DNA of 64,000 nucleotides. Origin: a virus. Both the position numbers and the translations under genes were made by a program. This document shows positions 60,904 to 62,679 of the stretch, one piece after another. The first letter of the stretch is position 1; each line of letters begins with the position of its first letter. Location: IMG/VR virus record IMGVR_UViG_3300035670_000192, positions 1 to 64,000 of that record; one strand, given 5' to 3'. The notes beneath the pieces were generated by a model. The model had not been told where the DNA came from and ran no database searches. It saw only the letters and a program-made list of their open reading frames with translations.

Positions 60904-60978
60904 TGGCGAGTAGATCAGAGGTAGATCAGCTGACTGTTAATCAGCCTGTCGCAGGTTCGATCCCTGCCTCGCCAGCCA
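60904..60978 (+). tRNA. tRNA-Asn (GTT)
   Basis: Acceptor TGGCGAG/CTCGCCA, anticodon loop CTGTTAA, T-loop GTTCGATC, encoded GCCA end. Confidence 0.93.
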
Positions 60979-61004
60979 TCTTGGTGCTTGCAGGGAATTC
61001 ACTG

Positions 61005-61146
61005 TGAGTCATCCGTTGGTGCAAAGACTTTTCCGTTTGAATAGCACCAACGATATATGAGGTTGAACGGAATGCATTCTATGTTGCGTGGGGGCATAGA
61101 TAAGAATAATCCAGTAGCGTGAGAATTCGCGAACGATAGCCCACGC
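61005..61146 (+). ncRNA. Pseudoknotted structured RNA, 5' segment
   Basis: Non-coding stretch between tRNA-Asn and tRNA-Ala. Helix 1 CGTTGGTGC/GCACCAACG (61014-61022 with 61044-61052, 9 bp) encloses TTCCGTT (61031-61037), which pairs with AACGGAA (61066-61072) outside it: an H-type pseudoknot. Then TCTATG/CATAGA (61078-61083 with 61095-61100) encloses GCGTGGG (61086-61092), which pairs with CCCACGC (61140-61146): a second pseudoknot. All helices are perfect. No CDS fits. The family is unknown to me; large phage RNAs such as GOLLD and ROOL also lie in tRNA clusters and should be compared. Confidence 0.6.
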
Positions 61147-61153
61147 CATTTTT

Positions 61154-61228
61154 GGGGAACTAGTGCTAACGGGAACACGCTGCGTTTGCATCGCAGAGTT
61201 TGGGGTTCGATTCCCCAGTTCTCCACCA
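61154..61228 (+). tRNA. tRNA-Ala (TGC)
   Basis: Acceptor GGGGAAC/GTTCTCC (one G-T), anticodon stem CTGCG/CGCAG with loop TTTGCAT, T-loop GTTCGATT, encoded ACCA end. It lies between the two structured non-coding segments. Confidence 0.9.
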
Positions 61229-61234
61229 AAACGT

Positions 61235-61527
61235 TCCGACTCATAATCGGATAGTGTGCGTCCGCACGATGAGAAGCGAGATCATGACTCGCAGGACCTT
61301 ACCCTTGGGTTGAAAAGGGCGCTGGCAATGCGACAATCCTCTTTGGTCGTGAAGTGGATGGAAGGACTGCGTGATGGCATTAGTACCCGTAAGGTAGAGA
61401 CTAGTGCTTGATGGTCTAAGTTACCACCGCAAAGAGGAAGCAACTAATTAACGCTGGATGTGGCGAGCAGTAATGTGTCGCCTTCATCGGATGCCCAGAA
61501 CGAGCAAACCCAGTTGTCTCATCCAGC
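61235..61527 (+). ncRNA. Pseudoknotted structured RNA, 3' segment, with tRNA-Met-like anticodon arm
   Basis: About 290 non-coding bases. It starts with TCCGA-CTCATAA-TCGGA (61235-61251), an exact 5-bp/7-base anticodon arm with CAT. GCGAG/CTCGC (61276-61280 with 61288-61292) follows. ACCTTAC (61296-61302) pairs with GTAAGGT (61389-61395); inside it CCTCTTTG (61338-61345) pairs with CAAAGAGG (61430-61437) beyond it, giving a long-range pseudoknot. GCTGGATG/CATCCAGC (61453-61460 with 61520-61527) closes a 3' domain containing GGCGA/TCGCC. The 3' end directly precedes tRNA-Gln. Not RNase P or tmRNA by eye. Confidence 0.6.
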
Positions 61528-61536
61528 ACTTATTAT

Positions 61537-61610
61537 TGAGGAGTCGTCTAACGGCAGGACAGCAGGTTTTGATCCTGCTTATCGTGGTTCGAATCCATGC
61601 TCCTCAGCCA
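61537..61610 (+). tRNA. tRNA-Gln (TTG)
   Basis: Acceptor TGAGGAG/CTCCTCA, anticodon stem GCAGG/CCTGC with loop TTTTGAT, T-loop GTTCGAAT, encoded GCCA end. Confidence 0.92.
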
Positions 61611-61946: not shown

Positions 61947-61985
61947 ACATTTAATATAATCTTAACGGAGATTAATCTTCTTGGG

Positions 61986-61993
61986 GATAAATA
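61986..61993 (+). promoter_or_regulatory. Late promoter motif GATAAATA
   Basis: NATAAATA element 41 bases before the Ala/Val-rich gene; a CAGGAGA ribosome site lies between. It puts a late-type gene inside the tRNA region. Confidence 0.5.
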
Positions 61994-62034
61994 GGTTTGT
62001 GTTCGAACAATTAAATCCTCCAGGAGACCGACAA

Positions 62035-62679
62035 ATGAGACTACACGATCTTGCCGTAAGACTCGCTGCTGTTGAATCCAAGTTAGCCACACTAACTGGC
62101 ACAGTTGCAAATACAGATATTATCGATGATGTTGCTGAATTCGATCAAAGACTTTCAGTAGTTGAAGTTCAAGTTGACCAATTGATTGCTCTTAAGACAC
62201 AAGAACAAGTTGCTGTGCTTGTTGCTGCCCCAGCAGCCGCCGCAACCATCGCTGTTGAAGAAGTTGTTCTTCTCTCACCAAGTGCTGAAGATTCAGAAGC
62301 AGTTCTTGTTGTTGAAGATGTTCTTCATGCTCAACATGAAGCCGAGGCAATTGACAATCCAGAAGTTGCAGTTGTTGTCGCTGCTGCCGTTGCTGCAGTT
62401 GTTGCTGCTGATCCAGAAGTTGTGAAGGATCCAGAAGCAGTTGCTGTGCTCATCAAGGAAGCAGTTGCCGAAGCACCAGTTCCATCTGCTGAAGCAGTTG
62501 TTGCCACAGCAGAGGCTGTCGCTGCAGTTGTTGCTGCTGCTACAGGTGCCGAAGTTGCTCCAGAAGTTAAGGAAGAACTTGCAGTTGCAGTTGCTGCTCC
62601 TGCTGATCCAGTTCTTGATGGTCTTGAAGCACGTTTGGCAGTTGCGGAAGCAAAGGTCGATAGTCTATTGGGAAAATAA
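62035..62679 (+). CDS. Ala/Val/Glu-rich protein with terminal coiled-coil motifs
   Basis: 214 aa from ATG 62035 (AGGAGA site). The N-terminal LHDLAVRLAAVESKLATL and C-terminal GLEARLAVAEAKVDSLL are similar heptad helices, and FDQRLSVVEVQVDQLIAL is a third copy. Between them lies a low-complexity Ala/Val/Glu region (VVVAAAVAAVVAADPEVVKD). The repeat of the helix at both ends suggests an oligomeric rod. It has a late-promoter motif and its own terminators, so it is probably made in quantity late in infection; a virion or decoration role is inferred. Confidence 0.6.
   Translation: MRLHDLAVRLAAVESKLATLTGTVANTDIIDDVAEFDQRLSVVEVQVDQLIALKTQEQVAVLVAAPAAAATIAVEEVVLLSPSAEDSEAVLVVEDVLHAQHEAEAIDNPEVAVVVAAAVAAVVAADPEVVKDPEAVAVLIKEAVAEAPVPSAEAVVATAEAVAAVVAAATGAEVAPEVKEELAVAVAAPADPVLDGLEARLAVAEAKVDSLLGK

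Follow-up and report, generated by a model that had tools for sequence, protein, structure and literature searches.

Structured spacers in a phage tRNA cluster

The DNA analyzed here (the window, 64,000 nt) is taken from the record (65 kb) of an uncultivated virus, whose T4-type replication genes include those for UvsX, a DnaB-like helicase, primase and ribonucleotide reductase. The tRNA genes are clustered in the order Thr-Glu-Lys-Trp-Asn, a gap of 175 nt, Ala, a gap of 308 nt, and Gln-Tyr-Cys-Ile-Val...Arg; between tRNA-Val and tRNA-Arg, positions 61981-62679 encode a 232-aa Ala/Val-rich repetitive protein with no PHROG match. ARAGORN places tRNA-Asn (gtt) at 60904-60978, tRNA-Ala (tgc) at 61154-61228 and tRNA-Gln (ttg) at 61537-61610, all on the + strand. 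tRNA-Asn is the upstream neighbor of the first element described below (RNA A), the CCA end of tRNA-Ala directly abuts the second (RNA B), and tRNA-Gln is the downstream neighbor. A first-pass annotation of the two gaps had listed seven helices, six of them as three interlocked pairs, and had argued that so much pairing was hard to explain by chance. All seven are present, with perfect Watson-Crick pairing. Counting perfect helices of 7 bp or more, the 175-nt gap (60979-61153) holds four vs. 0.60 in dinucleotide shuffles (P = 0.003), whereas the 308-nt gap (61229-61536) holds three vs. 1.34 (P = 0.15). The excess over chance thus stands for the first gap and not for the second, and homologs were needed to decide, since the pairing seen by eye in the 308-nt gap is not significant.

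By comparison with homologs, tRNA-Ala is flanked by two separate predicted structured RNAs, A and B, plus a small third element, C. The idea that a single RNA is wrapped around tRNA-Ala was dropped, as A and B are independent families with differing distributions (B follows many tRNAs, and A was seen in few of the large B carriers examined). On the other hand, covariation supports the presence of structured, pseudoknotted, non-coding RNAs within the cluster. Comparison backed five of the seven listed helices and five of the six that were said to form pseudoknots, the sixth being 61296-61302/61389-61395, which is found in this phage only: locus L304 has ACCTTAC without GTAAGGT, and other close relatives lack both. 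This phage-specific helix, together with the shuffle result for the B region, would fit an explanation of the elements as fortuitous pairing or degenerate tRNAs in spacer DNA, but the compensatory change in families A and B is strong and B is a single-copy element across distant phages. We consider this explanation to be refuted by the covariation and its remaining probability to be negligible.

RNA A lies at 60979-61153 (+), between tRNA-Asn and tRNA-Ala, and is supported by homologs and pair counts; model R2 matches its modeled part (61012-61147) with 130 bits. A scan for its central motif yielded 15 distinct copies, most of which lie between tRNA-Asn and tRNA-Ala, while an exact pattern, AACNRNGCGTGGGNNCATAGANNAGAAT, was too strict and gave zero matches. 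A 5′ hairpin (60987-60993/61002-61008) is predicted by the minimum-free-energy fold and was compared by eye only. It is followed by a first pseudoknot (61014-61072), in which 61014-61022/61044-61052 is interlocked with 61031-61037/61066-61072, and by a second one (61078-61146), in which 61078-61083/61095-61100 is interlocked with 61086-61092/61140-61146. These four helices, all of them in the first-pass annotation, hold among the 15 copies, where 94.9% of 389 cells are paired vs. 28-49% in slid controls and nine of 27 pairs change on both sides. Particularly, in the first pseudoknot CGTTGGTGC/GCACCAACG is replaced by ATCAGTGT/ACACTGAT and CCGTT/AACGG by CTGTT/AACAG, and in the second TCTATG/CATAGA is replaced by GCCATG/CATGGT. 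Helix 61086-61092/61140-61146 is invariant among the scan hits because the search pattern fixed those seven pairs; in the tandem second copies of RNA A found in three other phages (L315, L325, and L356), which were not selected by the pattern, GCGTGGG/CCCACGC is replaced by GTAAC/GTTAC. Judging from these alignments, RNA A represents a family with a covarying double pseudoknot, both pseudoknots being subject to covariation. It is a smaller family, rarer than B: among 26 large B-carrying records only three have it, and these were chosen as A carriers. B is present in most RNA A carriers, and none was seen in three fragments (L328, L357, and L359).

Distribution and fold of RNA B

RNA B belongs to a family of about 205 nt and is placed at 61229-61447 (+; RNA end about 61440), where model R1 matches with 148 bits. 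Homologs were reached through relatives of the UvsX of the window, which pointed to 15 virus records that have tRNA matches. The gap after tRNA-Asp in L089 aligns to the 308-nt gap (67% over 148 nt), and compensatory changes are apparent between the two; two conserved DNA motifs from this alignment work were scanned over IMG/VR. The first scan gave 41 matches, and alignment and HMM revealed the element in 16 of them; a second gave 113, all but a few of which were kept by the HMM; and a third, with a broader pattern for the 5′ core of B, gave at least 120, those listed looking genuine by eye. Pooling the IMG/VR pattern scans with HMM/CM searches, and deduplicating by the sequence around the 5′ part, we obtained at least 149 distinct copies of B. 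The carriers are well over a hundred uncultivated phages, often giant, and B is nearly always near tRNA genes. UvsX identity among the carriers goes from 93% down to 25%, or UvsX was not found, a range wide enough to indicate that several phage lineages carry B. The B-carrying records are mostly fragments; exactly one B copy was found in each of the 47 carrier records tested, among them contigs of 335-364 kb. G019, a related phage with a tRNA array that was searched alongside these 47, has no detectable B copy. Using blastn, the B copies of L106, L171, and L160 gave chance 21-mers or nothing against 50,697 phage records, and that of L160 had no B match in a plasmid set; megablast or blastn of the region or the cluster against phages returned only tRNA-Ala matches, or none. 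A pattern scan of GTDB genomes, with a pattern that needs the P8 arm described below, returned 59 matches, none of which fits the family B HMM. We found no earlier description of these RNAs in the open-access literature; within that literature and Rfam, family B is previously undescribed.

All 1096 tRNAs located within 1.5 kb of B are on its strand. B starts between −3 and +5 nt from the tRNA end in 83 of the 123 copies having an upstream tRNA, and CCA is encoded by 82 of these 83 directly adjoining tRNAs. At the other end, the next tRNA starts within about 6 nt of the end of the model in 31 of 72 copies. The preceding tRNA varies (Tyr, Ser, Met, Asp, Ala, Asn, and others), and 11 of the 149 copies are in loci without tRNA, where the gene neighbors differ and are various phage genes.

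To test the structure of B, 45 distinct copies were aligned and scored for 42 pairs that make up ten helices, two pseudoknots among them. In the window, all on the + strand, the family alignment places P1 at 61235-61239/61247-61251, P2 at 61254-61258/61263-61267, P3 at 61276-61279/61289-61292 and P5 at 61320-61322/61330-61332. The P2 loop would pair with about 61294-61297 to form pseudoknot PK1 (its register in this copy is approximate), and the strand before P4 with the P4 loop to form PK2 (61296-61319); this copy is atypical in PK2 and in P4 itself (about 61302-61306/61315-61319). P6 (61337-61345/61430-61438) is here a 9-bp helix that contains the 61338-61345/61430-61437 helix of the first-pass annotation, which proved to be conserved and covarying; all five P6 pairs tested change on both sides. 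Beyond it, the alignment places P7 (61354-61357/61424-61427) and, within 61354-61427, P8 (61364-61368/61413-61417) and the variable hairpin P9 (61377-61384/61400-61407), together with a kink-turn-like loop.

Among the 45 copies, 95.6% of 1,889 cells are paired vs. 81.5% in shuffles and 36-52% when slid, a percentage favored by the derivation of the structure from the same 45 sequences. Both-sided changes occur in 28 of the 42 pairs (17.2 in shuffles) and in 237 cells (59 in shuffles), counts that are not probabilities because the sequences are related. As the structure is self-derived and the sequences are related, the covariation argument rests on the margin over the slid controls. The nested part of the structure was found independently by RNAalifold. 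Moreover, the P2 loop and the strand after P3 co-change, as seen by eye, through the combinations ACC/GGT, GTC/GAC, ACG/CGT, ATC/GAT, and ACA/TGT. The arm beyond P7 is modular, the core being kept where the arm differs. A kink-turn-like layout (a three-base bulge and opposed GA steps) was present in 37 of the 45 arms, a count biased by a search pattern that required TGATG, and the arm is probably kinked. Elsewhere in the family a continuous helix, a very small hairpin or some unrelated insert takes the place of this layout, and identical P9 sequences recur on different B cores. B also has many invariant, apparently unpaired positions. On this comparative evidence, B is a new RNA family whose predicted secondary structure covaries across independent phages.

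Comparison with known RNAs

At gathering thresholds, cmscan found no Rfam family but tRNA in the window and, with E up to 10, nothing credible overlapping the elements in the window and L106. The models for GOLLD, ROOL, tmRNA, and RNase P, to which the first-pass annotation had pointed, gave no match in the region; the GOLLD and ROOL covariance models were unmatched there both at gathering thresholds and with E up to 10, and in related loci as well. Of the two origins then considered, a relative of GOLLD or ROOL and a new class, the second is the one that agrees with these results. Both GOLLD and ROOL assemble into cages made of RNA alone; they are large phage RNAs with pseudoknots and are often located close to tRNA islands (PMC12286853). 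Like B, GOLLD is a structured phage RNA beside tRNA genes (PMC12286853), but it exceeds 800 nt in many members, vs. about 205 nt for B; ROOL shares with B the pseudoknots and the frequent location by tRNA islands, but not a covariance-model match. With this precedent, and with further odd RNAs in the arrays, one of them tRNA-like, B and perhaps A could be pictured as an RNA cage or oligomer of this kind, or as a decoy that draws off tRNA-attacking nucleases of the host defence. We regard this as quite unlikely: the size of B is far below that of GOLLD, there is no sequence or model match, no oligomer contacts were seen in the comparison of B copies, and the 5′ near-palindrome GAACGTTC is not kept throughout the family (ACGTGC and AACCCGCC are variants).

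In T4, the tRNA cluster ends with tRNA-Arg, and two stable RNAs, RNA C and RNA D (species 1 and 2), are encoded immediately downstream of it. These are 139 and 119 nt long, vs. about 205 nt for B, and model R1, run without filters over positions 69500-73500 of NC_000866, gave 3.6 bits at best (E 0.35). Judged by length and model score, family B is distinct from both T4 RNAs. Similarly, tmRNA is a pseudoknot-rich RNA that adjoins tRNAs, and tmRNA genes are present in two B-carrying loci, but no tRNA-like domain or tag reading frame was seen in A or B, and ARAGORN and Rfam give only tRNAs; a 12-bit permuted-tmRNA match in the relaxed-threshold Rfam search falls inside tRNA-Ala. The tmRNA genes are located 1151-1532 bases past the B motif in L107 and about 1.9 kb past it in L154, and their tags are ANDNYYTEELRLAA and ANDELYALAA. 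The Rfam models of RNase P RNA and group I introns had no match up to E = 10. A group I intron proposed by eye, with AGACTA/TGGTCT as P7, was rejected, as the spacing is too short and Rfam gave no match.

The strongest rival for B is a role at the tRNA 3′ end: B would be a self-cleaving ribozyme of new fold that cuts its own 5′ border and so trims the upstream tRNA, like the theta (HDV-like) ribozymes of gut phages, whose cleavage site is at the 3′ end of phage tRNAs (PMC10879173). B shares this location with theta ribozymes (PMC10879173), as its start in the 83 copies described above illustrates, and its many invariant, apparently unpaired positions are in line with such an activity. Nevertheless, we consider it very unlikely. 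A tRNA whose CCA carries a cyclic phosphate could not be charged, and CCA is already encoded in nearly all the tRNAs that adjoin B, vs. 4.5% of theta-associated tRNAs (PMC10879173). Theta ribozymes have a small minimal HDV-like fold and neighboring tRNAs mostly without CCA, and by inspection B lacks the HDV strand order P1-P2-P3-P3′-P1′-P4-P2′ with the catalytic C in J4/2; its 5′ end is in no helix of that order. Moreover, B is also found without an upstream tRNA, and no Rfam ribozyme matched the region at gathering thresholds or with E up to 10. RNA A does have an interlocked P1/P2-like order, but with 2 nt between the P2 and P1′ strands and no P3 hairpin.

Array RNAs and a proposed role for B

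Element C (61451-61529, +) is a small stretch that would be closed by 61453-61460/61520-61527. It is 86-95% conserved in seven loci from related clusters, with just three sequence variants and an unchanged 8-bp helix. Across 128 tRNA clusters there are 520 distinct gaps of 60-800 nt, and at least six further recurrent RNA families (E, F, G, H, J, and N) occur in related arrays; six such arrays compared with Rfam gave tRNA as the only family. Family J (about 112 nt) has 41 distinct copies in 54 loci, often directly 3′ of B, with 12 of 19 predicted pairs changed on both sides and no Rfam match in the arrays checked (L144:1528-1641, +; L175:4888-4998, −; L160:9261-9373, +; alignment A3). Family F (about 158 nt), with 13 distinct copies in tRNA arrays, often close to RNA A, is closed by TGAGAGT/ACTCTCA-type ends (L168:813-968, L213:9187-9347, and L302:11194-11346; alignment A4). 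Family H (about 72 nt; L149:7507-7578, −; L146:5950-6023, +; and others) is tRNA-like, with an acceptor-like stem, a T-like arm and a TCCA end and without a D arm; it was not called as tRNA, and may be a tRNA mimic. Several copies per array were found of family E (about 70 nt, 18 distinct copies; for example, L087:6132-6203 and L205:7474-7542, −), which reads TTTTAGGAT...CAGCAAA...ATCCTGTTG and whose stem ends co-change. Family N (about 88 nt, 17 distinct copies; L087:1113-1202; L205:2272-2363, −; L200:14295-14383, −) has a ribosome-binding site and a mini-ORF (such as MKRSGKR*) in a hairpin, followed by a second stem, and family G (about 59 nt, seven distinct copies; L213:8806-8863; L089:4606-4664, −) is highly conserved (TTCTTAAACGACCCGTAGAACTCCCGGGCG). 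In the 170-kb record of phage G019, ARAGORN also calls a tRNA with anticodon cta (L087:7856), labelled Pyl, possibly an amber suppressor tRNA, that is, stop-codon reassignment.

The sequence comparisons establish the existence, predicted folds, location, strand, single copy, and modular arm of the RNAs. From their position and strand, we infer that A and B are co-transcribed with the tRNAs in the polycistronic array of the phage and released by the host enzymes that mature tRNAs: the 5′ end would arise when the upstream tRNA is cut off at its CCA, and the 3′ end would be made, or roughly set, when RNase P cleaves at the next tRNA. tRNA processing cannot release every B, given the copies in loci without tRNA. 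B would then fold, with P1-P5 and the two neighboring pseudoknots forming a conserved core that P6/P7 close and that carries the interchangeable, probably kinked arm P8/P9, and would act in trans during infection, as RNA or as an RNA-protein particle. Action in trans with a conserved partner is suggested by a core that is constant in unlike phages, by the one copy per record and by the lack of a fixed neighbor. A cis-regulator of one gene is not favored, as the neighbors of B differ, and an anti-Shine-Dalgarno role for the CCTCC in P6 was discarded, as other members have GGTCCC there. Overall, A and B are probably free-standing RNAs, cut from the transcript of the tRNA array by tRNA-processing enzymes, with B acting in trans. 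The partner of B might be some conserved part of the translation or tRNA metabolism of the host, a guess, rather unlikely to be right as it stands, that comes from the association of B with tRNA arrays and not with any protein gene. More broadly, we tentatively propose, as a plausible reading, that the tRNA arrays of large uncultivated phages store undescribed structured RNAs (at least A, B, E, F, G, H, J, and N), and that B is a widespread RNA machine in single copy, its core constant and its arm exchangeable, acting on a conserved host part as tmRNA or 6S RNA do in bacteria.

An RNA with two predicted pseudoknots, kept in single copy from T4-like phages to contigs of 335-364 kb and yet missing from Rfam, hints at a central part of large-phage biology that has been overlooked because most carriers are uncultured. 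The models and the conserved positions now make family B searchable and open to testing. Finally, the "spacers" of phage tRNA clusters, including the region of T4 RNA C and D, may be recast as RNA-gene territory and not leftovers, with A and B as part of a wider set of array RNAs.
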